Assembly (NCBI GenBank): GCA_949752735.1
Contig: OX457042.1
Location: 29,487,616 to 29,551,615 of the forward strand
Source of the DNA: Lumbricus terrestris
Taxonomy: Eukaryota > Annelida > Clitellata > Crassiclitellata > Lumbricidae
Reading direction: 5' to 3'
DNA: 64,000 nucleotides
Shown here piece by piece: positions 16,152-61,000 of this stretch. The stretch's first letter is position 1. Each line of letters begins with the position of its first letter. The translations under genes were made by a program, and so were the position numbers. The notes beneath the pieces were generated by a model that saw only the letters and a program-made list of their open reading frames with translations, ran no database searches and was not told the DNA's origin.

Positions 16152-17597
16152 TGTAGCGAACCAGGTTGCTACAAGCTACCTTACTTATTTACTTAAGTAA
16201 GGCCGCTATTTCTATTACGAATTCATGGGTGCTATGCTTAGCACTGATCGATGCGGTCATCGCTATATTTAGCTTCCCATGCATTTTTCAATGGAACTTT
16301 CCGCCACGTGCGATTTTTGATTGGTTAGACATCACGCGATGTTTTAGGCGCTAAAAAGCGCTCTCTTGCGGCAAATTAACGCGCAAACCTTTAGTCGGGC
16401 CGCAGAGTTGAATCGTGTAAGACCTATGCTGGTGGAAATCGTGAATCGTGGTAAAATTGATGGTATTTTCGATTCTGGCAAGTTTCTCAGGTAGAAGACG
16501 AGGTTCTTCCGATGTCTTGTGAATCGATGTGTAATTACGAAGATTTCCGGCAACGATTAAATTAATGATACGCTTCCGACGGAGAATTTCTGGCATCGGC
16601 CGACGACTCAATAACTTTCTACAGGACGGAAAACGGTGGATCGGCTGTCCTAAAATATCAATGGGAACAGGGAAGTATAGGCAACCTAATCTATAGAGCT
16701 CGAACCTGAACTAAGTGTAATTAGATAAAACTTGTATCGCTATTTTGGTGCAAATATTAGTTGTGGTATATTCAGTCTGTGAACTGATCGGATAGGTGTG
16801 AAATAGTCAGTCTGTGAACTGATCTGATAAAACTTAAGCTAGTCAAGGGACATAGGCGTTTTAGGAAGGCCTTAATAGTGAATCTAATATTGTTTCTATT
16901 TTATCGGCTGTGTAAATAATTGCTAATGAACGACAGACAGTCGCTTGATTAATTCTACAATAAATGAAACTTAAATAGAGAACTGTGAAGTGATTTCTGC
17001 TATCGAATTATAATGGACTCCGACAGGGACACGGACAGTGTCTTAGAGACAGGACAAGAGGAAGATGAGTTATGTCCGAGAGAAACCCTTGAGTTGGGGA
17101 CTACAGACAATACTGATGACTTAGACCCTGCTGTATTACAGAAACAAATGACTACAATAGAACAGTTTATGGAGCGCCAGAGTAGCATTTTAATCGGTCT
17201 AGCTGAAGAGCTGAATCTGGTTTCCATGCAGCAAGCCCAATTAAGTTCCCGCCAGAAAGATTGTGAAACAATGGTGAAGTCGGTAGCTGAAGGTAAAGTG
17301 GGTGATGGAGCTTGGGGGAAAGTTGAGGAATCGAACCCAGATAAGCACCCATTTAGTGGGGCTGTTGTGAGCTTAACAGCCACCGCTGACATATGTCCAA
17401 TATCGGCCCATCCTGAGGAATTTGGTAACCAGAGAAGCTCACACCCTAGGTTAGGATTCGAACCCGCTACCATTGACACCAAAACCCTTGACCTAGGACC
17501 CAGCTTTCCTCAACCGCGCTTAAGGGGGCGCGCAACAGTAGAGCCCATTAATTTGGGGTCGGAAACGGTAGGACAGGCGGTGCCCCCGCGCGTAACA
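16152..17597 (+). repeat. LTR-A 5' LTR (1446 bp)
   Basis: TG...CA long terminal repeat. The first 22 bp form a hairpin (TGTAGC-G-AACC pairing with GGTTGCTACA). A poly(A) signal lies at 16959-16964 and the gag ATG at 17013, so on the usual U3-R-U5 logic the coding part falls in U5. TCAGTCTGTGAACTGATC occurs twice (near 16769 and 16807). Confidence 0.9.
16959..16964 (+). promoter_or_regulatory. LTR-A poly(A) signal AATAAA
   Basis: AATAAA in the LTR, repeated at 24268-24273 in the 3' LTR. Cleavage 15-30 nt downstream would place the R/U5 border around 16980-16995, just before the gag start codon. The signal is seen; its use is inferred. Confidence 0.5.
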
Positions 17598-20597
17598 ATT
17601 GGTTCCAGCAAGTGGGATGAAGCTACAAAAGGTCATGGGTCAGAGGGTAGAATAATAATGGATCCCAGATTTAGTAGAGCAGAATATTTATGGGAAGAAG
17701 TGGAAAATGGAAAAGAAAATTTTTCACAAGATGATCCAAGAAGAATGGATGTACAGATGAAATACTTTGGTGCTAGACCAAAAGATTTACAAGGTCGGGA
17801 ACAAGGTCAAGGTCAAAAGGTAAATGACTTACAAGGTAAAAAGGTAAATGATTTACAAGGTCAAGGTCAAGGTCAAAGAGTAAATACAACTGACATGTTG
17901 CATGGTCAAGCAATGTATTATTATGATACAAATGTTTTGTATAGAGATTTTGACTTTGAAAATTACATGCGTCGAAAACAAGATAAATTAGTTAGAATTG
18001 AAATCGAAAATAAATCTGAAAATGATGATTCAGAAATCACTGACTTGCGACCTTTACATAGACTCGAACTCGAAACAAAAGCGTTAGGTGTAGAGCAAAA
18101 TGAGGGTAAAACTTGTACTAATCCCAGATTTTTAGTTTCAGATGGAAAAATGGGGGATTCTTCGTTGCTGAGCGACGACCACGTGGGAACATGGGATGCA
18201 CATCCTCGCCATTCAGCGACTGTCATTCCTCGGGCTGCCACCTTCCCCCCCTCGTCGGTTCCTGAAACAGAAAAATTCCGGTCACCGAGCAACATGCTGT
18301 CACAAGTGACCGCTTCAGTCACCTCGGCTGCTTCTGATGTCCTGTTCTGCGAGTCGAAAACAGAACCCGGAAGAACCCTCCCAGTCTTCGCATCAGTTCC
18401 TCAGATGTTCGCGTACACATCTGCTCCGAGTCGACCGATCATGTCCATGGTGTCCCTGTCGTCGGAAACTCGAGTCACGCACAGCTACGAATACATACAT
18501 TGGGCAACAGGTCAGCCCATGTATGCGCCATACAGTCAGAAGATGGTTCCACCTGTTCCAGTCTTCCCTGTCTACGCGGAAGCAGTTTCTCTTCCGATCC
18601 AGATGCAACCGTGGCCCGTGACGAACACAGTTCTGGAAAACTCTGTCAAGGTCATGCAACTGCATCCATCGTCAGAAATGTTCAGCCCAGCCAGTGTGAA
18701 CTGTCAAGATAACTGTCCGAAAACAGCTGAAGGAAAGACAGTCAGTCTTTCTTTCCCAGCAGTGCAAGTTGCTGCTGAAAGTCGAGCATCAACTGGTGAC
18801 ATGGTAACGCCATCAACCAACACAGAACAAGAAAAAGCTGCCGACTCAACAAGAGAGAAGGTGAGATCGCACATGAAACTAGGTCATTATAATGGAAAAA
18901 CGTCGGTAGAGGTGTTCCTAAAAAAATTTGAGGTGTGTTCCAAGAACAATCGATGGACAGAAAACGAAAAACTAGCACAACTGACCTGCGCACTGGTCGA
19001 ACCTGTAGATCAACTTCTTTATGAATTTGATTCTGACACAATCACCACATGCGCCGACTTGATGGACAGGTTGAGGCTAAGACATGGGAGCACTGACCAA
19101 ACGGTTTTGTACCAGACTCAACTAAGTGCTCGCAGACAGAAGGTAGGAGAAGATCTGGGTTCTTTAGTCCAAGACATAAGACGATTAATGATTCTGGCAT
19201 TCCCAGGACCGAGGTCAACACACAGTGAAACTATTGCGATCAAGGCTTTTCTTGATGCCTTACGAGATAAAGAGCTAGCCTTAAAAGTGAGAGAGAGGGA
19301 ACCGGTCACCCTAGACAATGCGTACAAGACGGCCATGAGACTGGAAGGTTACCGCAGAGCTGATGAAGATGGCCTGGACCGCCAAGAACGACGTCCAGGC
19401 CGAGTCAAAACTGTGAAGGAAAGTGATGAAACGGGAGATTGCGATATGAAAGAATTTCGCGAAGACATTGCCCGTCAATTAAAACAATTGAGTGACAGAA
19501 TGGACTGCCTGCTGAATACTCCATCGACCGAAAGACACTATCCGCCATGGCAACCGCAACGCACCTCTTCGGCATGGAGAGGCACAAACTATAGAAATCA
19601 ACGTTGGAGTCAGAAACCGAATGAAAACTACCGAAGGACAACGCCTGACAACCGACGCTGCTTCGAGTGCAACCAGGTTGGACATTTGGCCCGGGTTTGT
19701 CCTCGCAGAATCACCTCTTCGTCAACTGGAGAGCAAGATGAACCTGAAGAACCTGGGGTGAGTAACGCTAGACATGTAAAAGGAAACAGTGACGCTTATC
19801 TGTCCGTGACAATTAGAGGAAAGAAATTGCTAGCTTTGTTAGACTCTGGCAGTGAAATGACATTATGCCCTGCGTCGTTAGTGGATCCGGCGGAAATCAA
19901 AGGCTCCAGTCAACTGTTGCGAGCTGCTAATGGGTCTGCAATTCGGGTACTGGGGGAGACTGTATTGAAACTGAAAATCGAAGATCAGGCTTTCGAAATT
20001 CCTTGTTTGGTAACTGAGCAGGTTACTGAACTTATTCTCGGACTCTCTTGGATGGTGAAGGAAAATGTCATGTGGCATGTAGGGAAAGGATGGATCTTCG
20101 TCCGGAATCTGCGGCTGAATGTCCTGTGCACAAACAGTTTGAAACAGTGTCAGCGAGCGAAACAAACTGTCAGTGACCTGCGAAATTCTCCGAACATTGA
20201 AACGAGCTGTGAAACGAATGTCGAAAATCGAACAGTGCTGCCAGAGACGAAAATCACGAAAGAAATCTGTGCCGTGCAAACCGAAACCTTCGAACCGGAA
20301 GCTTCGTGTCAAGAGAAGACTGCTGTCCAGCCCAATCGCTTCCGAAATCTCTGTCCTGCTGAGGTGGCAGCCCGAATCCCACGTCCACCGGATGTGCATC
20401 CTCGGGTCGACCCAAATAGTTCCTTCCGGGGTGGAACTTGCCTTCCTCCAGTGACGCCATCTGTCGAATCAATGCGAGTGGAAGAGTCAGATGCAATCTA
20501 CATGGTCACTCGCTGCCCAAAGTCTGGTGTCGATCAGAGGATCAAACTCACCGGGGGAAACAGACTCGCAATGCTGGCGAGACTGTGGCAAGCGTAA
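17013..20597 (+). CDS. LTR-A Gag-protease polyprotein (1194 aa), start inside LTR
   Basis: One open frame with, in order: an acidic N-terminal part (1-195) encoded wholly by the LTR; a Q/G-rich repeat (DLQGxxQGQGQ-type, ~260-290); a long low-complexity linker; a retrotransposon capsid region (~620-780, starting MKLGHYNGKTSVEVFLKKFE); one CCHC zinc knuckle, CFECNQVGHLARVC (~883-896); and a retropepsin-type active site LLDSGSEMT (Asp ~944). The ~200 residues after the protease end in a stop with no RT. It would assemble particles and process Gag while polymerase and integrase come from elsewhere. The ATG at 17013 is the first after the predicted R/U5 border; downstream initiation at a later Met is possible. 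Confidence 0.88.
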   Translation: MDSDRDTDSVLETGQEEDELCPRETLELGTTDNTDDLDPAVLQKQMTTIEQFMERQSSILIGLAEELNLVSMQQAQLSSRQKDCETMVKSVAEGKVGDGAWGKVEESNPDKHPFSGAVVSLTATADICPISAHPEEFGNQRSSHPRLGFEPATIDTKTLDLGPSFPQPRLRGRATVEPINLGSETVGQAVPPRVTIGSSKWDEATKGHGSEGRIIMDPRFSRAEYLWEEVENGKENFSQDDPRRMDVQMKYFGARPKDLQGREQGQGQKVNDLQGKKVNDLQGQGQGQRVNTTDMLHGQAMYYYDTNVLYRDFDFENYMRRKQDKLVRIEIENKSENDDSEITDLRPLHRLELETKALGVEQNEGKTCTNPRFLVSDGKMGDSSLLSDDHVGTWDAHPRHSATVIPRAATFPPSSVPETEKFRSPSNMLSQVTASVTSAASDVLFCESKTEPGRTLPVFASVPQMFAYTSAPSRPIMSMVSLSSETRVTHSYEYIHWATGQPMYAPYSQKMVPPVPVFPVYAEAVSLPIQMQPWPVTNTVLENSVKVMQLHPSSEMFSPASVNCQDNCPKTAEGKTVSLSFPAVQVAAESRASTGDMVTPSTNTEQEKAADSTREKVRSHMKLGHYNGKTSVEVFLKKFEVCSKNNRWTENEKLAQLTCALVEPVDQLLYEFDSDTITTCADLMDRLRLRHGSTDQTVLYQTQLSARRQKVGEDLGSLVQDIRRLMILAFPGPRSTHSETIAIKAFLDALRDKELALKVREREPVTLDNAYKTAMRLEGYRRADEDGLDRQERRPGRVKTVKESDETGDCDMKEFREDIARQLKQLSDRMDCLLNTPSTERHYPPWQPQRTSSAWRGTNYRNQRWSQKPNENYRRTTPDNRRCFECNQVGHLARVCPRRITSSSTGEQDEPEEPGVSNARHVKGNSDAYLSVTIRGKKLLALLDSGSEMTLCPASLVDPAEIKGSSQLLRAANGSAIRVLGETVLKLKIEDQAFEIPCLVTEQVTELILGLSWMVKENVMWHVGKGWIFVRNLRLNVLCTNSLKQCQRAKQTVSDLRNSPNIETSCETNVENRTVLPETKITKEICAVQTETFEPEASCQEKTAVQPNRFRNLCPAEVAARIPRPPDVHPRVDPNSSFRGGTCLPPVTPSVESMRVEESDAIYMVTRCPKSGVDQRIKLTGGNRLAMLARLWQA
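17600..17618 (+). promoter_or_regulatory. LTR-A primer-binding site (tRNA-Leu-like)
   Basis: TGGTTCCAGCAAGTGGGAT begins two bases after the LTR CA, the normal PBS position. It resembles PBS sequences complementary to tRNA-Leu (TGG..CAG.AGTGGGAT) but the match is imperfect and the tRNA is tentative. It is translated as part of gag (frame reading I-G-S-S-K-W-D). Confidence 0.6.
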
Positions 20598-22299
20598 TGT
20601 GATGTAATGTGATATGATAGGGTAGTCCTGTCGCGTAATGGCGACAAGTAGGTGAATAGAGAATAGAGTCTTCTCTGCTTTAGTTGTGTTTTTGATGATG
20701 TAATGTGGCCTTGAGATGTAGGTTTACATTTTTATTTTAATGTGCGTGGATAAAATTGTGCTTTCTTACTGTGTAAAAATGTGAAAGTTGATTACAGTAA
20801 TGAAGTGTAATATGATGATATATGTTAAGTGAGAATGCATAGTTTTATTCGTGTGAAATGTAGCTTAAGTATTTCAGATTATAGGTGTGTCCTCTGATGA
20901 TAAAAATAACTATGTAGGTGAGATGAATAATAAAGAAATGGGATAAATAAGAGATAACCAGGTAAAGATACTTGTACTTGTCTCGTGTAGAATCCCTCCA
21001 GGTCGTGTAATGGCGACGAGAATAAGCGAAGGGAGAATAGAATCTTCTCTGTTTTATTTGCTTTTTGATGATATGTAACTATGTGATGTGGGAATACATT
21101 GTTTTATTTTCTTGTGCATAAATGCTGTGCTTTCTGATGTAAGCTAGTTGGCTATAACTATGTGAAAATGTTTACAGTAAGTGTTTAGTAGCAGTTACAA
21201 GAAAGTAATGTAGAGTGATGTGATGCTACAAGGACATTTAGTAAGTATGAGCTCCAGCGTAATGCTTAAAGAGTAGTCCTTTAGTTTGAAATAAAAAGGG
21301 TAGTTTTAAACTCAGTTTAAATATTTGAATTGCTTCTTGTTGCCACGAAGAAGGGCAAATTTTGTGCTTGTATGTTATGTGCATAATAAGGATTGCAAGT
21401 TAAAAGATAATGATTATAGTAGGCTATGGTAGAAGTAATTAGCATTCTGCGTGGTGATTGAAGGATAACCTTGTGTGATTGGATGAATGAGTAACTTGGT
21501 GATGATGTGGTGCTAGATTGTGTAGTAAGTTTGAGTAGAGCACCCAATTGTAAGCATCGCCCTGAGAGTTAGTGAATAAGTTGGATTATAGACTTAGAGG
21601 CAGACTAAACTCACTGTAGGAGACAGTGGAGATTACAGTCAATGGTGAGCTGTGCCTGAGGTATTGACGATGAGTTCGTCCAGTCTTAGACCACTTCCTG
21701 CAGGGGTTGTAATGTAATAGACTATTATAGGATATGGGAATAAATCCTTTATGCCTTGGGTATGCTTAGCTGAGCAGTAATTCCTTCTTCGATCCAGGTA
21801 GCTAAGCCTTGATGTAATGTTGAAACGTGTGCATGTTGGTATGCATTATTAGTACCCTAGGTTTATGATCTGACGTTGCTTCATCTCTGTAACAGTGGCT
21901 TGTTGTAAAAGGAATGCGTGCCTGTAAAACACAGCTTAAGTTTTAAGTTGCTGTATATGTTTGGCTTGGTGAATGGGTGAACCTTGGTTTCGGATTGCAG
22001 TAGAAAAGATGGTTTGTGGATATCAAATATTGTCTAAGAGATAGAGTAAGGTAGTATGTATGAGAGCGACTGAGTGTGCTTGAAGATGCATTTCCCATTT
22101 TGTGGCTTTTGATGACAAGTTTAAATGGATTATGGCCTCAGACTCTTGTGTACCTGAGATTTAGTATAGTATCATAACCATAAAATTGTGTAAGGTATTG
22201 ATTCTTTTATAGCGATTCTTGTTGATTGTGATTATTATATGTGAAATTCTAATAATGCTACTGCTGTATAAAAATGTAATAACGGATTAATATAAGATT
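20598..22299 (+). other. LTR-A non-coding interior with a duplicated ~370-bp segment
   Basis: No ORF of note. Two diverged copies of one sequence lie at about 20625-20820 and 20998-21190 (shared GTAATGGCGAC, AGAATAGA.TCTTCTCTG, TTTTTGATGAT and GTGCTTTCT). Most of the rest is AT-rich and unrecognised. An autonomous gypsy element would carry pol here. Confidence 0.6.
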
Positions 22300-22317
22300 T
22301 GGCGCCGGAACATGACT
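22300..22317 (+). other. Second PBS-like sequence inside LTR-A
   Basis: TGGCGCCGGAACATGACT resembles primer-binding sites complementary to tRNA-Lys (TGGCGCCCGAACAGG). It lies about 160 bp upstream of the 155-codon ORF, not at an LTR edge. It could be a relic of another element fused into the LTR-A interior, or chance. Confidence 0.3.
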
Positions 22318-22458
22318 ACATGTGTTAAGAGGACTTTCTCTCGCTAGGGTTCCGTGCAATTGCTGGAAGTAGAAGGTAGTTAAATTTCATTGTGAATAAT
22401 TGCTAAAAGTAGTTAAGCTAGGTGATTGTAATTATGTGTAGTTATTGGGGTAAGCTGG

Positions 22459-22926
22459 ATGTTGGTGCGATACTTCTACGAAAGGGGACCGTTAGAATTT
22501 GGACGGACAGAGTTAGATGCTCTGTTAGAGTCGACACCCGCCCTCTTGACCTGTGCTGAAACTGTGCCCATTGTGGTGGCTACCATTCACACGGTGGCAA
22601 CTGTGCCCAGGATCCTAGACGTGATAAATCGTTGGAGGAGGGAGGTAGGAGATCCTACTCCTGAGTCGGCCTACGGGCAGGGGAATGGTCTCGCACTAAC
22701 CCCGTGGAAAGAGGAAAATCTGTGGACTTTCAGAACCTGGACCTTAGCCATGGAAGTATCCCACCGGTTCTTAGCCCAAACGAACACCCTTTCCGAGGAA
22801 GTGTTCCTCGCGTCACTAACTGACCTGCTGGACCCTGTTGGTCGAGAGTGGTGGAAGGTAGAAACGATAGTTACAACGCTGTTTACTATTAAGAAGGCTG
22901 CATGGTTCTGGCCATTCCTCGTTTAA
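22459..22926 (+). CDS. LTR-A second ORF, unrecognised 155-aa protein
   Basis: An open frame of 155 codons that is more GC-rich than its AT-rich surroundings, which favours real coding. I recognise no family. It starts MLVRYFYERGPLEFGRTELD, has a hydrophobic stretch near 35-55 (VPIVVATIHTVATVP), a Trp-rich middle (WKEENLWTFRTWTLAMEV) and a C terminus KKAAWFWPFLV. There is no zinc knuckle, protease or polymerase motif. The position, downstream of gag-pro and before the polypurine tract, is where env or accessory genes usually lie. A remnant gag from a fused element (see the PBS-like site upstream) is an alternative. Confidence 0.5.
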   Translation: MLVRYFYERGPLEFGRTELDALLESTPALLTCAETVPIVVATIHTVATVPRILDVINRWRREVGDPTPESAYGQGNGLALTPWKEENLWTFRTWTLAMEVSHRFLAQTNTLSEEVFLASLTDLLDPVGREWWKVETIVTTLFTIKKAAWFWPFLV

Positions 22927-23452
22927 CGCTACTGAGTTGGTTGTAGGCAGTGATGTTACCGCTTAGATGTACCAGGCTCCTATAATTTAGTATCGAGGGA
23001 TCTAGCATATAACACTAGTCGTGAAATGAAGATATGATTTCAATTGGTTATTTTAGGTGGACTATACAATTGTGTTACTGAGTTGTCTTGGAAATGCTAT
23101 CTCCTGCATTGCTATGTTTTACCTTTCCGAGATATTATTGCTATATGATGTATGTAATCTGATGGCAGGTATTAATGATAAAAACTGTGACAGTTTATGT
23201 GAATGAGGAGATTAGTAAGACTTTGTTGGTCAGTGTGAAGACCTCGGTTAGTTAAGAGCTGTTGTTGGGCATATGTGAACCCTTATGACTGACTAATAAT
23301 CAGCCATTGTACAAATTTCTATGCCAATTGATGCAACTTCTGAGACATTGTAAGCTGTAGCATGCTAGATGATATACAAGTACTATGTATCCGGTTCGAG
23401 CTCCGAAGTATTATTAAATTTACCAGGGTACTGGTAAATTTAAGAGTAAGTT

Positions 23453-23460
23453 GTGGGGGG
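23453..23460 (+). promoter_or_regulatory. LTR-A polypurine tract
   Basis: GTGGGGGG lies directly before the 3' LTR, in the position of the plus-strand primer. It is short and contains one T, so other elements of the tract may lie further upstream (AAGAGTAAG). Confidence 0.5.
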
Positions 23461-24906
23461 TGTAGCGAACCAGGTTGCTACAAGCTACCTTACTTATTTA
23501 CTTAAGTAAGGCCGCTATTTCTATTACGAATTCATGGGTGCTATGCTTAGCACTGATCGATGCGGTCATCGCTATATTTAGCTTCCCATGCATTTTTCAA
23601 TGGAACTTTCCGCCACGTGCGATTTTTGATTGGTTAGACATCACGCGATGTTTTAGGCGCTAAAAAGCGCTCTCTTGCGGCAAATTAACGCGCAAACCTT
23701 TAGTCGGGCCGCAGAGTTGAATCGTGTAAGACCTATGCTGGTGGAAATCGTGAATCGTGGTAAAATTGATGGTATTTTCGATTCTGGCAAGTTTCTCAGG
23801 TAGAAGACGAGGTTCTTCCGATGTCTTGTGAATCGATGTGTAATTACGAAGATTTCCGGCAACGATTAAATTAATGATACGCTTCCGACGGAGAATTTCT
23901 GGCATCGGCCGACGACTCAATAACTTTCTACAGGACGGAAAACGGTGGATCGGCTGTCCTAAAATATCAATGGGAACAGGGAAGTATAGGCAACCTAATC
24001 TATAGAGCTCGAACCTGAACTAAGTGTAATTAGATAAAACTTGTATCGCTATTTTGGTGCAAATATTAGTTGTGGTATATTCAGTCTGTGAACTGATCGG
24101 ATAGGTGTGAAATAGTCAGTCTGTGAACTGATCTGATAAAACTTAAGCTAGTCAAGGGACATAGGCGTTTTAGGAAGGCCTTAATAGTGAATCTAATATT
24201 GTTTCTATTTTATCGGCTGTGTAAATAATTGCTAATGAACGACAGACAGTCGCTTGATTAATTCTACAATAAATGAAACTTAAATAGAGAACTGTGAAGT
24301 GATTTCTGCTATCGAATTATAATGGACTCCGACAGGGACACGGACAGTGTCTTAGGGACAGGACAAGAGGAAGATGAGTTATGTCCGAGAGAAACCCTTG
24401 AGTTGGGGACTACAGACAATACTGATGACTTAGACCCTGCTGTATTACAGAAACAAATGACTACAATAGAACAGTTTATGGAGCGCCAGAGTAGCATTTT
24501 AATCGGTCTAGCTGAAGAGCTGAATCTGGTTTCCATGCAGCAAGCCCAATTAAGTTCCCGCCAGAAAGATTGTGAAACAATGGTGAAGTCGGTAGCTGAA
24601 GGTAAAGTGGGTGATGGAGCTTGGGGGAAAGTTGAGGAATCGAACCCAGATAAGCACCCATTTAGTGGGGCTGTTGTGAGCTTAACAGCCACCGCTGACA
24701 TATGTCCAATATCGGCCCATCCTGAGGAATTTGGTAACCAGAGAAGCTCACACCCTAGGTTAGGATTCGAACCCGCTACCATTGACACCAAAACCCTTGA
24801 CCTAGGACCCAGCTTTCCTCAACCGCGCTTAAGGGGGCGCGCAACAGTAGAGCCCATTAATTTGGGGTCGGAAACGGTAGGACAGGCGGTGCCCCCGCGC
24901 GTAACA
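23461..24906 (+). repeat. LTR-A 3' LTR (1446 bp)
   Basis: Same length as the 5' LTR; the difference seen is A to G at 24355 (Glu to Gly in the LTR-borne reading frame). It repeats the first 195 codons of gag; the frame then runs 7 codons into flanking DNA and stops at 24930. Confidence 0.9.
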
Positions 24907-26230: not shown

Positions 26231-26489
26231 AATCATTACGAGAAGCCGACCTCACGGGAGAAGGAGAATGAGCATTTGATCAACCGGAGAAGCATTCCGA
26301 GCATCCGAACAACTGGTGAGAAGATACAACGGGCATACGAACGACATTACGACAACGCAACGCCAGAGAGAGGTATACAAAACTCGCTCCTTGAATAAAC
26401 AAGCAATAAGAATTAAAGTCAACCAATTACAGCAATCATAGCCACTCCCTCGTTTTCTTCACGGAAATCATTTGAAGTAAAGAAGTAAG

Positions 26490-29400
26490 ATGGAGAAACT
26501 TACAGAACAAAAACAAGCTAGTATAAAAAAGATGTCTTCTGATCGAATAATAAAATTATTAATCGAAGCTGGTCTAGACGTGGAAGAAGTCGAAGAGATG
26601 TCAAGGGAAAATTTGATTAGAGCTTTAGCAGAGGTGTGGCTTAAAGAAGAAGCGATAGCACCACCCACAGCGCGGGTAGGCCTAATTAGTGGGGCTGAGG
26701 AGAAACCACAGGCTATGTCTATGGAGGCGTTGATGCAATTTATGATGATGAGGGAGGAGCAACGGAGACAAGAAGAGAAAGAACGGAAACAAGAAGAGAA
26801 AGAGAAAGAGGAGCAACGGAGACAAGAAGAGAAAGAACGGAAACAAGAAGAGAAAGAGAAAGAGGAGAAACGGAGACAGGAGGAGAAAGAGAAAGAGGAG
26901 CAACGTAAGCAAGAAGAGAAAGAGAAAGAAGAGAAACGGAGACAGGAGGAGAAAGAGAAAGAGGAACAAAGGAGACAAGAAGAGAAAGAACGGAGACAAG
27001 AGGAAAAAGTAAGAGCAGAACAAGCAGAAAGGATGAGACAAGAAGAGATAGAGATGCAGAAGCAGCAGTTTCAGCTTCAGTTAGAACAACTGAAAAGAGA
27101 TCGTGACGAAGCTGAACGAAGAAGAATGGAATTGATGATAGAATACGAGAGGGCAAGGAAAAGTGATGAAGAAATACGGAAACAACAGATTGAAGAGCAA
27201 AAGGCTCGCGAGGAAGTCAAGGAAGCCATGCGTTTGGCAGAATTACGAAGAGCCGAAGAGATTCGACAGGAAGAATTGAATATGGAGAAAGAAAATTTGG
27301 AAAAGGCGGAACGAGAAAGGGAAGAACAAGTACAATTAGAACAAAAGAAACTCGCTCTTAAGGAAGCTCAGCTCCGAGAAATGGCTATAGAAAAGGAGGA
27401 ACGCAGAAGGCAGTTAGAATTGTTGCAGCAGAAGATAGAACAAGAAGAACTGCGTAGGGAAGAAGATCAAAATAGACTGAGGGAACGAAATGAAGACGAA
27501 AGAAGAAGCCGTGAGGAGTTAGAACGAAATAGGATCCGAGAAAGTGAGACAATGGTGTCTAAGATTAAGAAGATAGGTGATGCAATGAAACACGTGTTAC
27601 CTAAGATGCCATATGATATGATGGAGGTGCCATTATATTTTGAGACAGTTGAGAATGCATTCAACAGTTTTACGGTGGAAAAGCAGTTTTGGGTCAAATT
27701 GCTGTTGCCACTAATGACACCAAGAGCGAGAACGGTGTTAAACCGATTGTCTTTTGATGATCTAGACAATTACGACATAGTGAAAGAACATTTACTGAAA
27801 GAATTCAAATTGACAGCGAGAGAATATCGATCACGATTTGTAGATGCGAAGAAAACGGCAGAAGAGACATACACTATGTTTACAGCAAGATTGAAGAATC
27901 TGTTGAACTATTATGTCAGAAGTAGGCGAGTGGGCAAAGACTATGAGAAGTTATTTGATCTGTTGGTGGCGGATAAGTTGAAAGAATGTCTACCACCGGG
28001 TCCACTACAGTTTGTACTAGCAAAGGAGGGTACTGAATGCTTGGAAGCTAGTAATGTTGCAGATCTCGCAGACATACATGTGAACAATCGAATTGGTCTA
28101 ATGTTTCAAGACAAACCGAAATATGAAGCATGGGGTAATAGTTCGAAGCAAACCAGGTGGAATAGTAGTAACAAAGAAACGGGAAGCCAAGCCAGAAGTA
28201 ATGAAGTAAGGAAAGATAGTGCTCCTGGAAGACAGTTTGGTCAAGATAGAAGAGAAGCAACGGGTGACAGACAAATATATAGTCGAATTCCAGTGATGGG
28301 ACGTGAAAGAGAAAGCAATGCAGCATATGCTCCGTACAATTACAGACGGGAGAGCACTGAACAGAGAGGTATTGTGAGGAAACGTTGCCATAATTGTCAG
28401 TCAGACCGACATTTGATAAAGGATTGTCAAGCACCACCAAGAATGACAAATCTGAGAAATAGATTTACTCGAAGTGCAGAAAATCTCAGAGTAAATCAGA
28501 TCCAAGTAATGAATGCACCTAATCAGCTGGAAGGACAAGACAACCGCGAAACGGAAGTGAAGTCAGTAATGAAGTGTACGCCTCAGTTTACTATACAGAG
28601 AGAAGTAGTAAAATCTGCTCCCATTACGGATACTTGTCGAGAAACAGAAAGTAAAGATCAGTGTCAACGTACGAAGAAGTCCTTACTACGGCATGTAGAT
28701 GTAGATATACGTGGAAATGATGACAGTTGTCATCCCGTGCAAGTCAAAGCGCTGATTGACTCTGGTACTGAGATTCCAGTAATCAATGAGGAATTATTGA
28801 AAGGAGCGACAGTAGAAGAAATTGGCAGAGTACATTTGCAACGTGTGGCTGGAGAACCCATTCCAGCTAAGTTGGTGAAAATAGAAGTGCGGATGAGTGG
28901 TCATAACGTACACGAAGGAGGAGATTTGAAGGACAAGGGAGTAAATATCGCGCCATATTTAATCTTGGTATGTGCCAGCATTCCAGCAGTCTTGTGCAAA
29001 GATAACAAAGAAAAGTTCTTGCTGCATCCAGAAATAATTGCAGAACTGAAAGAGGTTCCACCAGTGAGTGTATTGCAAGGAGAATTGCAAGCGAATGTGA
29101 CTACGAGAGCACAAAGTCGGAGAAGAGCAGTGGAAGAAGGAGAAGAAGAACAGCTAAATGAAAGTTTGCTAGACGATGACACAGAAAGCGATGATGAACA
29201 AAGCGTTCAAGAAGAAGAAGAAGGAGTAACATCCAGGAGCAATGAAATTGAAGAAGAGATGGTTGCATGTGAACGTGATGATTATGATGATTCTGGAAGT
29301 GATAGTGAAATGGACACGAGTATGAGAGATTTGTTTGCCGAGAATACGAGTGATGAAAGACAATTGGCAGACGCAAAGAAATTTGAAGAGCAGCAGAGAA

Positions 29401-30581
29401 ATGACGAGTCACTGAAGTCGTGGTGGAAGATAGCTGAAGACAAAGGATCTGAGTTTAGTGTGGTGAATGGGTTGATGTATAAGAAGCATCAAATGTTGGA
29501 CCAGTTGGTGTATCAGTTGGTGTTGCCGAAGGAAAGAAGAATTCAGGTGATGGAATTGGCACACGAGTCAGTATTTGGCGGACACTTGGGAGAAGAGAAG
29601 ACAAGAGAACGTATCAAATTGTCCTTTGTGTGGCCAAGGATGCGTAGAGATGTGGTGAAATTCTGCAAGTCTTGTGAGAAGTGTCAGTTGAAAGCACGAA
29701 GTTTGGTGATGGATCGAGTACCGATTACGCCAATACCAAGGGAGGATGTGCCGTTCAGAAGAATGACAATGGACGTCGTAGGACCAGTCGAACCGACGTC
29801 AGCAGCAGGGCATAAGTATTGCTTGTGCATCGTAGACTCATGTACAAGATGGCCGACAATCTTTTTGATGAAGTCATTGACTGCTAAGGCTGTATGCGAA
29901 GCTCTGATGAAGTTGTTCATGGATGTGGGAGTTCCGTCAGTGATAACGAGTGATAGAGGAACGAATTTTACAGCCAGTCTAACGAGAGAATTTCTGAAAT
30001 TGATGGGGTGTTGTCCTCGATTCGATTCGCCAGGACATCCAGAAGCGGCCGGATTAGTGGAGAGGTGGAATCAAACGTTCAAGAAGATGGTTCATCATGT
30101 CATTGTGGAAAATCCGAGACAGTGGCATAAAATCATTCCATTTACAGTCTGGGCATTGAGAGAAGTGCCTAATGCAACTACAGGAGTGGCACCGTATCTG
30201 CTGGTCTATGGAAAGTTGCCGAGAGGGCCACTAACCATTCTTAAAGAAAGCTGGACCAAAGAGATAAATTTATTACCGAACATTGGAGTGCAACCGGCTA
30301 AGTACATGAAGAATTTAAGAGCAGACATGGAAAAGGCCTTAACATTCGCCGAGAGCTGTGCTGAAGAAAAGCAAAAACAATACGCCAGTCAATATAATAA
30401 AAGAGCAAAAGATAAAGAATTCGAACCAGGAGAAAACGTCATCGTGCTGTATCCAACGTCAACCAATAAATTGATCTCACGATGGCATGGTCCATGCACT
30501 GTCTTGCAAAGAAGATCCAAATATTCGTATCTCGTGGACATGAATGAAAAGGTCGACGAATTATTCATGCCAACAAGATGA
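26490..30581 (+). CDS. Gmr1-like ORF1: Gag-protease-integrase polyprotein (1363 aa)
   Basis: Domains in order: N-terminal helix-rich segment (1-85); a long charged coiled coil built of EEKEKEEQRRQEEKER-type repeats (~85-370); capsid-like region (~370-540, YDMMEVPLYFETVENAF then LLLPLMTPRARTVL); CCHC knuckle CHNCQSDRHLIKDC (~632-645); retropepsin site LIDSGTE (Asp ~756); acidic linker; integrase HHCC finger (H..H..CKSCEKC, ~1026-1072); and the DDE core with Asp in TMDVVGP (~1094), Asp in TSDRGTNF (~1154) and Glu in GLVERWNQ, spaced D-35-E. The frame stops right after integrase and overlaps ORF2 by ATGA. Confidence 0.93.
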   Translation: MEKLTEQKQASIKKMSSDRIIKLLIEAGLDVEEVEEMSRENLIRALAEVWLKEEAIAPPTARVGLISGAEEKPQAMSMEALMQFMMMREEQRRQEEKERKQEEKEKEEQRRQEEKERKQEEKEKEEKRRQEEKEKEEQRKQEEKEKEEKRRQEEKEKEEQRRQEEKERRQEEKVRAEQAERMRQEEIEMQKQQFQLQLEQLKRDRDEAERRRMELMIEYERARKSDEEIRKQQIEEQKAREEVKEAMRLAELRRAEEIRQEELNMEKENLEKAEREREEQVQLEQKKLALKEAQLREMAIEKEERRRQLELLQQKIEQEELRREEDQNRLRERNEDERRSREELERNRIRESETMVSKIKKIGDAMKHVLPKMPYDMMEVPLYFETVENAFNSFTVEKQFWVKLLLPLMTPRARTVLNRLSFDDLDNYDIVKEHLLKEFKLTAREYRSRFVDAKKTAEETYTMFTARLKNLLNYYVRSRRVGKDYEKLFDLLVADKLKECLPPGPLQFVLAKEGTECLEASNVADLADIHVNNRIGLMFQDKPKYEAWGNSSKQTRWNSSNKETGSQARSNEVRKDSAPGRQFGQDRREATGDRQIYSRIPVMGRERESNAAYAPYNYRRESTEQRGIVRKRCHNCQSDRHLIKDCQAPPRMTNLRNRFTRSAENLRVNQIQVMNAPNQLEGQDNRETEVKSVMKCTPQFTIQREVVKSAPITDTCRETESKDQCQRTKKSLLRHVDVDIRGNDDSCHPVQVKALIDSGTEIPVINEELLKGATVEEIGRVHLQRVAGEPIPAKLVKIEVRMSGHNVHEGGDLKDKGVNIAPYLILVCASIPAVLCKDNKEKFLLHPEIIAELKEVPPVSVLQGELQANVTTRAQSRRRAVEEGEEEQLNESLLDDDTESDDEQSVQEEEEGVTSRSNEIEEEMVACERDDYDDSGSDSEMDTSMRDLFAENTSDERQLADAKKFEEQQRNDESLKSWWKIAEDKGSEFSVVNGLMYKKHQMLDQLVYQLVLPKERRIQVMELAHESVFGGHLGEEKTRERIKLSFVWPRMRRDVVKFCKSCEKCQLKARSLVMDRVPITPIPREDVPFRRMTMDVVGPVEPTSAAGHKYCLCIVDSCTRWPTIFLMKSLTAKAVCEALMKLFMDVGVPSVITSDRGTNFTASLTREFLKLMGCCPRFDSPGHPEAAGLVERWNQTFKKMVHHVIVENPRQWHKIIPFTVWALREVPNATTGVAPYLLVYGKLPRGPLTILKESWTKEINLLPNIGVQPAKYMKNLRADMEKALTFAESCAEEKQKQYASQYNKRAKDKEFEPGENVIVLYPTSTNKLISRWHGPCTVLQRRSKYSYLVDMNEKVDELFMPTR
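26757..27012 (+). repeat. Coding minisatellite in Gmr1-like gag
   Basis: Purine-rich repeats of the form GAGGAGCAACGGAGACAAGA and relatives encode the EEKEKEEQRRQEEK coiled coil. Copies differ slightly in the Q/K and R/K positions. Mirror-image frames on the other strand are open only because of this composition. Confidence 0.85.
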
Positions 30582-32107
30582 GAAAGTTCATTACGAGAAC
30601 ATTGTCTTGTGGTCTGATCGTGGAAGAGGATGACGAATTTGGATCAGTGGTAGAAATACCGCTGAAGGAAGACCATACAGAGACAAAACAGAAATCACTC
30701 CAATTGGATTATGAACAAATTGGACATCTTACGAGCGAACAGCAGAAACAATTACTTGATGTACTGAATCGTTATGCAGACAGATTTTCGGACAAACCGG
30801 GACTATGTACATTAGTAGAACATGAAGTGGTGTTGAAACCAGACTTTCGAGAAAAAGAATTCATGGCATATCGAATACCACTAATATACCGGGCAGAAGT
30901 GGAAAGACAAATACAAGAGATGCTGAAAGAAAACATCATTCAACCATCGTCAAGCAGAATGGCAAGTCCACTTGTCATTGTCAAAAAGAAGGATGGATCC
31001 TTGAGATTGGCTTGTGACTACAGATACATTAACGCTTTTACTGAGAACTGCAGATATCCTATGCCAATCGTCAATGATGTTTTGAGCAAAGTCGGAAAAT
31101 CCAAGTTTATTTCTGTTATGGACTGTCGCAGTGCCTATTGGACTTGTCCTGTGAAAAAGAGTGATCAATGGAAGACTGCGTTTGTTACACATAATGGACT
31201 GTACGAATTTACGCGTGTTCCTTTTGGAATGATTAACTCTGGACGGACTTTTGTAAAAGCGATAAATATGATTTTGCAACCGATACATGATTTCACTGAA
31301 CCTTATGTTGATGACATTGCAGTGCATTCTAATGATTGGGACATTCATTTAAGACATTTGGAATTATTTTTGAAACAAATTAGACTGCATAATGTAACGT
31401 TGAACTTGAAGAAATGTGTGTTTGGTAAGAGTGAGGTGAAGTTCATCGGTCACCTTATAGGATCAGGGAAGAAGATGATGAATCCAGATAGGATTGACAG
31501 TTTGATTAATTTGAAGAAACCTGAAACCAGGAAGGAAGTGAAACAGGTCTTAGGATTTTTTGGGTTTTACAGACAGTTTATTTGTAATTTTGCTGAAATT
31601 GCTAAACCATTGACAGACTTAACCAGCAAGAAAGTACCTGAGAACATTGTTTGGACTGATGCACATCAGAAATCCTTTGATTCACTTAAACAGATTGTCT
31701 TGTCAAATGTGGTTTTATATATGTTTGAGGTTGGTAAACCTTTTAATTTGTACTGTGATAGCAGTGATTTTGCTGTGGGAGCTGTTCTATCACAGGTGGA
31801 CAATGAAGGGATAGAACGTCCCGTTTCCTTTATAAGTCAGAAGCTGACAGATACCCAGAGGAGATGGGCGACGATTGAGAAGGAAGCCTATGCAATTATA
31901 TGGGCTTTAAATAAATTGAAAGAAATTCTTATTGGTTCTAAGATTAATGTGTTTACAGACCATAATCCTTTAGTTTACTTGACTGAATCAATGTCGAAAT
32001 CTGCTAAGTTAGTCAGATGGTCATTATCATTACAAAATTTTGACATTCTGTTGAACTATAAGAAAGGTAAATTGAATGTAGTAGCTGATTGTTTATCTAG
32101 ATTGTAG
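30578..32107 (+). CDS. Gmr1-like ORF2: reverse transcriptase-RNase H (509 aa)
   Basis: The RT palm is complete: FISVMDCRSAYW (catalytic Asp ~181), FTRVPFGMINSGRTF, and the YVDD box (~241-244). RNase H follows with NLYCDSSDFAVGAVLSQ, the ATIEKEAYAI Glu, VFTDHNPL and the final VADCLSRL. No integrase follows; it is in ORF1. The start ATG overlaps the ORF1 stop as ATGA (30578-30581), which suggests termination-reinitiation, although frameshifting is not excluded. RT is normally fused to protease or integrase in Ty3/gypsy elements, so a separate RT-RH frame is unusual. All catalytic residues are present. Confidence 0.93.
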   Translation: MRKFITRTLSCGLIVEEDDEFGSVVEIPLKEDHTETKQKSLQLDYEQIGHLTSEQQKQLLDVLNRYADRFSDKPGLCTLVEHEVVLKPDFREKEFMAYRIPLIYRAEVERQIQEMLKENIIQPSSSRMASPLVIVKKKDGSLRLACDYRYINAFTENCRYPMPIVNDVLSKVGKSKFISVMDCRSAYWTCPVKKSDQWKTAFVTHNGLYEFTRVPFGMINSGRTFVKAINMILQPIHDFTEPYVDDIAVHSNDWDIHLRHLELFLKQIRLHNVTLNLKKCVFGKSEVKFIGHLIGSGKKMMNPDRIDSLINLKKPETRKEVKQVLGFFGFYRQFICNFAEIAKPLTDLTSKKVPENIVWTDAHQKSFDSLKQIVLSNVVLYMFEVGKPFNLYCDSSDFAVGAVLSQVDNEGIERPVSFISQKLTDTQRRWATIEKEAYAIIWALNKLKEILIGSKINVFTDHNPLVYLTESMSKSAKLVRWSLSLQNFDILLNYKKGKLNVVADCLSRL

Positions 32108-40424: not shown

Positions 40425-40535
40425 GGGGGGACTTTGTCCGGGGGGATAATGTCCTACGAAAAATCGGGGGAATATGTCCGGGGGCTAATGTCCGGGGGGA
40501 TAATGTCCAGGGGGGCTAATGTCCGTTCCCCGAAA
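40425..40535. repeat. G-rich short tandem repeat, GGGGGNTAATGTCC
   Basis: About six copies of a 15-20 bp motif (GGGGGGATAATGTCC, GGGGGCTAATGTCC). The G-runs are long enough to suggest possible quadruplex structure. Confidence 0.75.
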
Positions 40536-40594
40536 GTTGGTCTGTAAAGGGCGTTTTAGCACTGCCCAATCTCCAACCTATAGTTAGCACAAAT

Positions 40595-41675
40595 ACTATA
40601 AGTGTGGTCCATGGCTCGACTAGCTCTCGGTGGGTCCCTGCCCCATATGGTTTGCCTCAGGGTTCAGTTCTTGGTCCACTCTTATACATAATTTATACCA
40701 CTGGTCTCGACCTGCTTCTTGCAGAACATGGTGCCTTTAGCCAACTCTACGCTGATGACACACAGGCATACATGCACTGCCTCTCATCTAACGCTTCCTC
40801 TACAGTTAGGGCTATGAGTCAGGTGCTCATTGCCCTGAGAGCATGGATGGCATCAAACCGTCTTAGACTAAACCCTGCTAAGACTAAATTCATTTGGCTG
40901 GGCTCCAGGCAGCAGCTGTTTAAGCTTGATCTGATTCACCTCTCTGCTGAATTTCCCGACTATACTTTCTCCACCTCAGTCCGTGACCTTGGTGTTGTGC
41001 TAGACCAGGAACTTACTTTTGTACCTCACATTAATCGTCTCAGTCGCTCCTGTTTCTATCAGCTGCGCCAGCTTCGCACTGTCGCTCGCTCTCTCTCAAC
41101 TGGTGCTGCAACTACGCTTGTACATTCCTTTGTCTCAGCTCGTCTTGACTATTGCCTATCCCTTTATGCTGGTTTACCATCTGGTCGATTATCTTCTCTT
41201 GACCGTATTCTGCGCGCTGCAGCACGCCTCATTGGTCATCTGCCCAAATTTGGTCATGTTACAAATTACATGCTGGAGGTTCTGCATTGGCTCCCAGTCC
41301 GTCAGCGCATCGAATACAGAATCTCGTCCTTAATATGGCGCTGCCAGCTAGGTCTTGCTCCATCTTACCTACTCGATCTTTGTCGGCCTGTGTTAAGTGC
41401 TCGGACTGGTCGGTCCCTACGCTCGGCTGTTAGGGAAGTACTCTTTGTCCCATTTGCTCGTACCTCCACCATGCAGAGTCGTGCTTTTTCTGTGGTTGGC
41501 CCAGTGGTATGGAATGCCCTCCCACTTGAGCTGCGCCTGTTCCCTAGATCACTCTCTGACACACTCTATAAGCACCTAAAAACTGTTCTGTTTGTCCGTA
41601 CTGGAGTCGGGAGCGCCTCTGAGTAGTTTCCTTGAAGAGGCGCTATATAAATACTTGAATGAATGAATGAATGAA
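40595..41675 (+). mobile_element. 5'-truncated CR1/L2-type LINE with (GAAT)n tail
   Basis: An open RT frame is followed by a short 3' UTR (GTCGGGAGCGCCTCTGAGTA, TTCCTTGAAGAGGCGCTATA) and a GAATGAATGAATGAATGAA tail. Candidate target duplication: TTAGCACAAAT (40584-40594) versus TTAGCACACAT (41676-41686). Its tail matches the SINEs here. Confidence 0.85.
40604..41626 (+). CDS. LINE reverse transcriptase, C-terminal 340 aa (partial)
   Basis: Open frame from the RT fingers/palm onward: [11 protein letters not shown] near residue 17, the YADD catalytic box at 49-52, [12 protein letters not shown] downstream, the thumb-like region, then the conserved [14 protein letters not shown] and WNALPLELR motifs of CR1/L2-type LINE C termini, ending GSASE. 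The endonuclease and RT N terminus are absent through 5' truncation, and the listed Met is internal, not a true start. The absence of stops suggests a fairly young copy, but it cannot mobilise itself. Confidence 0.85.
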
Positions 41676-58000: not shown

Positions 58001-61000
58001 ACTAAATAATTTGCTTTGCCCTGTTTTTAGAGCACTTAAAACATCTAAAACACTTAAGAACACTCAGAGTCACTAAATAAATTCGAGTTGCCTTTATCTG
58101 AGAATTGCTTAGGACACTAAAAACAATTAGAGTCACTTTAAAATTTGATCACAGCATAACTTTTTTTATTATGCGCATTTTTCGAAAAAGTAGAATGGTT
58201 TATCCCCCGGATAGTATAGACCGGTTAATTCCATCCTGGGGATGGATTAATTCATCCCCACGGATAGCTTTCAGGGGGGATACTCCGTTCCGTGTCACCT
58301 GCTATGCAGCATCTTTCAATAGAGCCAAGCGGTCATGATTATCAGCGGCCGTGATGATAATCCATTCGAAAGTCAATTTAAAAGGCGCTACGCAAATTAA
58401 TTCGGTCGACTTTCATTCTTTGTCATGAGAGTCCAGTTCTGTGCGTTGGACTATCAATAGAAAAGTCAGAGTTCATAAAGGGGGCAGGGAGTTGTTATGG
58501 ATTACCGCTACACTTGCACTCTATAGCCTACGCATTAAGTTTCGTTACCATATACTGTAAGTGGGAAGATCGGGCAGCAAGGCACAGGACTGTCACTCCT
58601 CGTCTTCGAAGTTAAAAATAAAAAGTGGCTGACTCCGTGGTTGCCTCTTATTGGTGGATTGCTACTGTATAGTAGTTCAAAGAATACCTGTCTACCACCC
58701 TTATCAGAATTTCTCTCTATCTTGAAGGACTAATCTTTGGTACTAAGCAAGTTATAAGTAGATTTCAGATTAGATCCTACATGCTTACACGTCATGGGTT
58801 TTTTAACAAAGAGATTTTATATTGGATTCTCCCTGCTGACACATCATGTAGTGTTGCAGCATCATGTGCTGTTTTTTTAACAAAGAGATTTCAACAGAAA
58901 CCCCAAGACAAAGGACACGCAAGCCAATTTAGGAAAATTAGCGTCATCTGGCAAATTACGGTAATTCTGATAAATTTGGTTCAATTGGCAGCTGAGGATA
59001 TTGAGGCCAAATTTAGATCAATTAGGCTGTAATGAACATAATGAACATATTGAACAGTCAAATGACACTCTAAACAATTGCGGCCCCAGGTCCTTGCTTC
59101 TGGTCCACGTGTCGAAACAGTGCAGTCAGTGGAGGAAGCTCCTACTACAACACTACATTCGGGATGTACGTAACTGCTTAGGGACTTTGAGCAAAGCATT
59201 CAACAACTCAATAACAATCATTGCTCTGTGCCCTCAGATCCAGAATTCTGCTGATGTTGCATGCATGATAAATGTAAACGAAAAAAAAATAACATCAGGA
59301 CTAAAACTAGTAACAATAAAATGGAACAGCGTAAAGTGCCTCATCATTAATGATTAAACTACAATAAAGAAATCATTAGTCTCATCACAAGAACAGATTA
59401 TCTCACCATTGAAATAAAACAGAATACTTTACCACTAAAATAAAATAGAATCTTCACCACTAAAATAAAACAGAATACTTCACCACTAAAATAAAACAGA
59501 ATACTTCACCGGTCACCACTAAAATAAAACAGAATACCTCACCATTAGAATAAAACCAAATACCTCACCATTAGAATAAAACCAAATAACTCACCATATG
59601 TAAGAATAAAACCATATACCTCATCATAAGAATAAAAACAAATACCTCACCATTAGAATAAAAACAAATACCTCACCATTAGAATAAAACCAAATACCTC
59701 ACCACTAGAACAAAACCAAATACCTCACCATAAGAATAAAACCAAATACCTCACCACTCATTGGTCCTGCACTTCGAAATCACCTCACTCCACAAATACG
59801 TTCTCCGTTATTAACTGGTACCCCAAGCACATCTTTTCGCTGTTTCAAAACCACTTTATTTTCTCTGGGTCTTTCGCACTGGGAGCACCTCTGATTGGCA
59901 TGCACTGCAAGAGGCGCTTATAAATTCACACACACAATACAATACAATTAGAATAGAAAAGAATGCCTCATCAAAACAACAGAATCTAATAGAATCAAAT
60001 AACAACAAAACAATAGAAAGCAGAGAACTACAGAAACCGGGCGGCCACGCATGATCGCCAACGTGGAATCGAACTGGAGACTTACGGTCATCAGCAAGCA
60101 CTTGTTCTCCATGATGGCGCCGCAGCAGCCGAAGAACCCGACGACGAGAACAAGAACGCCGGCGGTGATGCAGAGAACGGTGGCGCTGAGGAAGTTCATA
60201 GATGGAGACAATGCCGTGGCGGCGTTCTTCGACACCTGCAGCCATATCCCGATGCCAAGGATCGCACAACCGAGCAACTGTGCAACAACAGACAACAGCT
60301 CAAAGATAATAACGCTTAATTCATTCATTCAGAGCATTTATACAGCGCTCCTTCAAGAAACTACTCAGAGGCGCTCCCGGCCCAACCACGAACAAAGAAA
60401 AAATACTTGAGAGACTTGTAGAACCCAGCCGGATGGACCACAAGTAGCGAGCAAAGCGTAACCGGGAGGTCGTTCCAGACAGTAGGCCCCACGATCGAGA
60501 AAGCACAGCGCTGCTTAACAGCCAAGCGAGCCCGCGGAATCAGAAGCTCACCCCTAGCTGAAGAGTGAAGTACATGACACACTGCAATGTCAGAAGAGAA
60601 CATGCTCCTAACATAAACGTGACATTCGATCCTTGATCAGAAGCGTGTCTCTGACGAGTGTCTTTCGGAGGCTCTAAATAAATTTGTGATAGCAATATGC
60701 AAGAATTCAAATTTATGACTTGCTGGCATCAACCCTTACAATCTTCGAGGAGGAGGCATCAGAGTTGGGTCTACACGTCAACTGGCAGAAAACAAAAGTG
60801 CAAAGTCTGAGCGATTTCCTACCGCGACCTCCGGACATCATGGTAGAGGGGGAGGCGGTCGAGTGTGTTGAGGGCTTCAACTATTTGGGCGTGCTCACTC
60901 ATGAGTCCTGTCGCAGCACCTCGGAGATCTCAAGACGCCTGGGAATGGCAAGCGGAGCGTTTGGAGCCCTAAAAAATAACATCTGGTCCACTCGTATCAG

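Follow-up and report, generated by a model that had tools for sequence, protein, structure and literature searches.

The window analysed here, a 64,000-nucleotide stretch of Lumbricus terrestris DNA, holds an LTR retrotransposon, LTR-A, on its forward strand. Its terminal repeats (5' LTR, 16152..17597; 3' LTR, 23461..24906; both + strand) are 1446 bp long each, end in TG..CA and are flanked on both sides by CTAT, and a PPT-like GTGGGGGG directly precedes the 3' LTR; the borders that the initial annotation had called secure are therefore well founded. A single mismatch separates the two repeats (1/1446; position 17047, A in the 5' LTR and G in the 3' LTR), and due to this low divergence we consider LTR-A a young insertion. 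Paired LTRs, a target duplication, a primer-binding site (PBS) and a PPT are all present, the PBS being imperfect relative to the one tRNA end with which it was compared. A second element, LTR-B (26481-32107), has its integrase domains (H2C2, rve) placed before RT-RNase H, which we take to be the arrangement of Gmr1-type Ty3/Gypsy elements, and an imperfect array of short repeats in its gag (26719-27045) encodes a probable coiled coil rich in Glu, Lys, Arg and Gln. Elsewhere in the window, a reverse transcriptase match (RVT_1) at 40520-41626 is probably a LINE-type remnant, and the region 60693-61484, with DUF6451 as its only match, looks LINE-like to us.

From Met216 of its long open frame onward (17658..20594, + strand), which is where the relative P0030 begins, LTR-A encodes a capsid, a CCHC knuckle and an aspartic protease. 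Asp_protease_2 exceeds its Pfam cut-off, while zf-CCHC (18.8 of 20.8 bits) and gag-asp_proteas (26 of 28.2 bits) fall just below theirs, and we counted the knuckle and protease characteristic of Ty3/Gypsy elements (Metaviridae) as present. A capsid model built with 17 relatives (mean pLDDT 83.7) is predicted to have the Ty3/Arc fold, with Foldseek probabilities of 1.00 to dArc1, Arc and PNMA2 and 0.99 to Ty3, at E-values of 1.5e-3 to 0.14 and none <=0.001. Of 30 related proteins, 15 entered alignment A1, 6 alignment A2 and 17 alignment A4, the rest being left out of those alignments. Four of them (P0002, P0003, P0006, and P0012) share the capsid-CCHC-protease region at 45-49% identity and continue into RT, the last three also into integrase, whereas LTR-A does neither. 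Neither RT nor integrase was seen in its internal region (20598..23460, + strand), which ends in the PPT-like motif, and the RT-RNase H-integrase order of a Ty3/Gypsy pol is thus missing from LTR-A. Because pol is absent from the window copy and present in relatives, LTR-A is at most a non-autonomous Ty3/Gypsy relative. An intact Gag frame lacking RT and integrase is the make-up of Gag-only non-autonomous elements; LTR-A keeps the protease too and, judged by its domains, is presumably a Gag-protease-only, non-autonomous member of this kind. The internal region also contains a 164-codon open frame (22432-22926) with no Pfam match, a length reached in 6/400 simulations, and a direct repeat (20630-20766 and 21002-21135; 142 columns, 75% identity).

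The Gag-protease frame opens inside the LTR. Stop to stop it spans 16989-20597, with its first ATG at 17013 (585 nt short of the LTR end), and crosses the PBS without a stop. The fused frame of the window copy (17013..20597, + strand, stop included) comprises 1194 codons, of which 195 are LTR-borne (17013..17597, + strand), just as the initial annotation had claimed, and it resembles the Gag frame of Ty1 in beginning in the LTR and running through the PBS. Another ATG further upstream, at 16964, opens a 4-codon ORF. AATAAA at 16959..16964 (+ strand) is the only such motif in the LTR and places the start codon, as had been proposed, in the predicted U5, the R/U5 border being set from this motif; the frame would then be present once in genomic RNA, at the 5' end. 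Strong-stop DNA includes U5, which ends up in both LTRs; lying in the predicted U5, the LTR-borne frame would be part of strong-stop DNA and double with each insertion. The 3' LTR holds the same frame (24322 onward), extending 7 residues into the flank. One earlier claim, that the coding part is identical in both LTRs, did not hold, as the only LTR mismatch falls in codon 12, which reads Glu in the 5' copy of the LTR and Gly in the 3' copy.

Several observations bear on whether these 195 codons are coding or open by chance. They contain 0 stops, whereas the two alternative sense frames have 18 and 20, and none of the 20,000 first-order Markov sequences simulated for each of three backgrounds stayed open (10.4 to 13.1 stops expected). 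The codon score of the frame is 0.07, against -0.45 and -0.57 in the remaining sense frames, and codon score and base composition by codon position in the LTR part resemble those of gag from 18159 on. The second-best codon score (-0.07) belongs to an antisense frame, which counts against the coding argument; across the 195 codons this frame is largely open, with one stop. Measured stop to stop, an antisense frame overlapping the LTR-borne coding part is 169 codons long (17000-17509) and open in both LTRs. It is the one point in favor of a chance origin, a reading that the simulations, the codon score and the existence of relatives nonetheless leave barely credible. The LTR-borne codons apparently constitute real coding sequence. 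The initial annotation's picture of a coding segment in the predicted U5, with the strong-stop copying and duplication that would follow, is supported to this extent, and two other LTR-borne frames stay open.

These two frames are those of P0031 (199 aa) and P0032 (213 aa), LTR-borne relatives from the database that are 94% and 88% identical to the window frame and share its initial Met. They were the only two matches of a query with the short 3'-LTR copy of the frame; residues 1-200, compared with 1194 candidates in the same length range as the whole ORF, matched none at E 0.01. Both relatives carry the Gly of the 3' LTR at codon 12. P0031 diverges from the window after residue 195, where the LTR ends; a frame from a 3' or solo LTR should do just this. 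Compared with the 3' LTR, P0031 shows 10 differences, all of them one-step (mean BLOSUM62 0.70 vs. about -0.44 under neutrality; P about 0.013). P0032 shows 23, of which 20 one-step differences were scored (mean 0.30, P about 0.021) and 3 were left out of the test; the mean over all 23 is 0.13. Substitutions in both relatives thus appear milder than neutral, in tests that are modest, covering two relatives and protein sequence only. The openness of these frames has to be read against the low number of stops expected under neutrality, only about 0.5 (P0031) and 1.2 (P0032), and against ascertainment, since database proteins are open by nature.

Among four sequences, 30 of the 195 positions are variable, and the longest invariant run spans 36 residues (25-60; permutation P 0.038). 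This run overlaps the only confidently predicted segment, a helix at residues 39-92 with a heptad pattern. Elsewhere the model of the LTR part, built from 4 sequences (mean pLDDT 46.9), has low confidence. The putative coiled coil has a weak, below-cut-off Pfam match to ANG-1 and no sequence match in PDB, neither of which indicates a function.

The PBS of LTR-A (17600..17618, + strand) is one base longer than the 18-nt stretch complementary to the 3' end of one known tRNA, from which it differs by 4 edits. The 18-mer concerned, TGGTACCAGGAGTGGGGT, is complementary to a tRNA 3' fragment that we take to derive from tRNA-Leu(UAA). The fragment is printed in PMC7330628, in the portion of that paper available; the corresponding portion of PMC5006322 gives the tRNA 18-mer as miR-4286, a point against the PBS reading. 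Residues 196-202 of P0032, IGTRSGV, are the exact translation of AT + TGGTACCAGGAGTGGGGT + G, and since they render the tRNA-end complement in protein form, P0032 seems to read through a canonical PBS. Its frame ends 18 codons past the LTR, and 12 of the last 14 residues of its tail are identical to frame 1 of the window. The end coincides with the position of the window stop at 17653, the first of two off-frame stops, TAATAA (17653..17658, + strand), found at the ATG of residue 216, two bases before ATG 17658.

P0030, the nearest relative over the Gag leader, starts precisely at residue 216. It is rearranged, with capsid and knuckle missing and a stretch downstream of the protease duplicated, the frame still being open. 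Because P0032 stops just before residue 216 and P0030 starts there, the relatives may have two cistrons. The proximity of stop and start is in itself weak evidence for such a layout; an off-frame stop <=6 nt upstream is found at 7/34 in-frame ATGs of the ORF, Met216 included. RNA folding across the PBS is unremarkable (z -1.34). P0031, P0032, and P0030 are known as bare protein records from short contigs, the arguments from P0032 and P0030 resting on one record each, and scans of viral_contigs and genome_contigs for the DNA of relatives found none. A gene caller may have chosen the start of P0030, P0032 may have decayed, and the PBS of the window copy could match some host tRNA as it stands. 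PBSs begin with TGG, and two further close relatives, P0009 and P0017, have a common sequence from a Trp codon onward and different sequences before it, which may mark an LTR border inside their Gag.

The reading that we prefer, and to which we would give an even chance of being right, is that LTR-A is a young, presumably non-autonomous element with genuine coding sequence in U5, whose relatives have two cistrons (a U5 coiled-coil ORF followed by Gag) that are fused in the window copy. The predicted U5 would code for a small, mostly disordered protein of 195 codons with one long coiled-coil helix. In related elements, to judge from P0032 and P0030, the ORF would start in U5, cross the PBS and stop ~18 codons on, beside the AUG of Gag, which could then be reached by termination-reinitiation or from a shorter transcript. 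In the window copy, the one-base-longer PBS would join the upstream ORF to Gag, yielding a predicted Gag with 215 extra N-terminal residues. This extra base, in a PBS 4 edits from the tRNA complement, would be the cause of the fusion; with LTRs that differ at a single one of 1446 positions, the PBS was most likely altered before or at insertion, not later. Two cistrons in relatives and a fusion in the window copy are the simplest account of the sequences at hand. The earlier description of the LTR part as the N-terminus of Gag accordingly fits the window copy, in which it is fused in frame to Gag; as a general layout it fares less well, since P0032 stops before residue 216 and P0030 begins there.

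Alternatively, the fused Gag could be the working layout itself, with Gag starting in U5, the LTR encoding an N-terminal coiled coil and P0032 representing a frameshifted relative, an explanation that we regard as a real though lesser possibility. The 1194-codon frame is open in a copy whose LTRs differ at 1/1446 positions, so the fusion was probably present at insertion, and a single start codon would serve the whole protein. Between 17013 and 17658 there are 11 further ATGs, and a Gag made on its own would therefore depend on termination-reinitiation or on a shorter transcript, which favors the fused reading in the window copy; a start at 17658 means that 12 upstream ATGs are passed or that ribosomes reinitiate. 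Leaky scanning to 17658 as the main route was rejected, with 12 ATGs from 17013 on in the way. In P0017, too, a single protein combines a helix-prone N-terminus with this capsid region, but its N-terminus has no detectable similarity to the LTR part. Also weighing against a fused working layout are the start of P0030 at residue 216 and the PBS itself, which is canonical as read in P0032 and 4 edits away in the window copy, the only one in which an in-frame fusion of LTR and Gag is seen and whose PBS has one base more than the tRNA complement as read in P0032. In a further scenario, an older coding region became U5 when the priming site shifted downstream into it, and now lies unused, with Gag made from residue 216 only. 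The start context of Met216 is equally good (ATAATAATGG against ATTATAATGG), and the protein searches with the LTR-borne part matched only P0031 and P0032. However, frames that remain open in two diverged relatives with mild changes are not expected of such a fossil, and the numerous upstream ATGs would make a sole start at 17658 difficult on LTR-A RNA; we consider this scenario quite improbable.

A further reading, unlikely but worth stating, is that the frame depends on the tRNA primer. Reverse transcription renews the PBS from the tRNA, and the primer would thereby fix the frame of an ORF translated through it: a canonical 18-nt PBS would give a separate U5-borne protein and then Gag, a one-base-longer PBS would give Gag with a 215-residue extension, and copies could switch between the two.

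In Ty1, Gag also starts in the LTR, which holds only about a dozen of its codons. The PBS of Ty1 from Saccharomyces cerevisiae lies within the GAG ORF (PMC4974528, available text), so a Gag frame containing the PBS is not unprecedented, a precedent that also speaks for the fused working layout. Ty1 differs from LTR-A in being copia-type and autonomous and in the extent of the LTR-borne segment, about a dozen codons vs. 195. Other overlaps between coding regions and LTRs, as described in the available portions of the respective papers, are not Gag starts in U5: in the plant centromeric Ty3/Gypsy elements of CRM group A the C-terminal end of the polyprotein lies in the 3' LTR (PMC3059260), and in V-clade1 of fishes pol partially overlaps the LTR (PMC11117352). 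RLG_Quinta of wheat encodes Gag and lacks RT and integrase, like LTR-A, and reliance on a partner has been proposed for it (PMC11302176); it is a plant element, and the available text does not mention a Gag start inside the LTR. The non-LTR element SART1 has two ORFs with overlapping stop and start codons, UAAUG, according to the accessible part of a review (PMC5972666), whereas LTR-A has its first TAA two bases ahead of the ATG, with stop-start coupling a conjecture. A literature search for ORFs or Gag starts inside LTRs, over texts available in part and differing in wording between papers, found no U5-borne ORF of the size seen in LTR-A, and the available parts of PMC7175516 and PMC5911963 contain nothing on the subject. 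Within the literature searched, two things seem new: how large the U5-borne segment is, and that relatives differ in their layout.

Placed in U5, a coding sequence would pass into strong-stop DNA, double with every insertion and persist in each solo LTR, so that protein-coding DNA would act like any other portion of a repeat. The same bases would have to be both translated and bound by the primer, a direct conflict in which the tRNA would constrain both the sequence and the frame of the protein. Ty1 shows this in miniature; an LTR-borne stretch of 195 codons, together with a relative that keeps the frame yet ends it before Gag, would make a much stronger case. If the tRNA did set the frame, copying of the PBS from tRNA in one case and from template in another could switch the layout, and solo LTRs would all remain sources of the coiled-coil protein.
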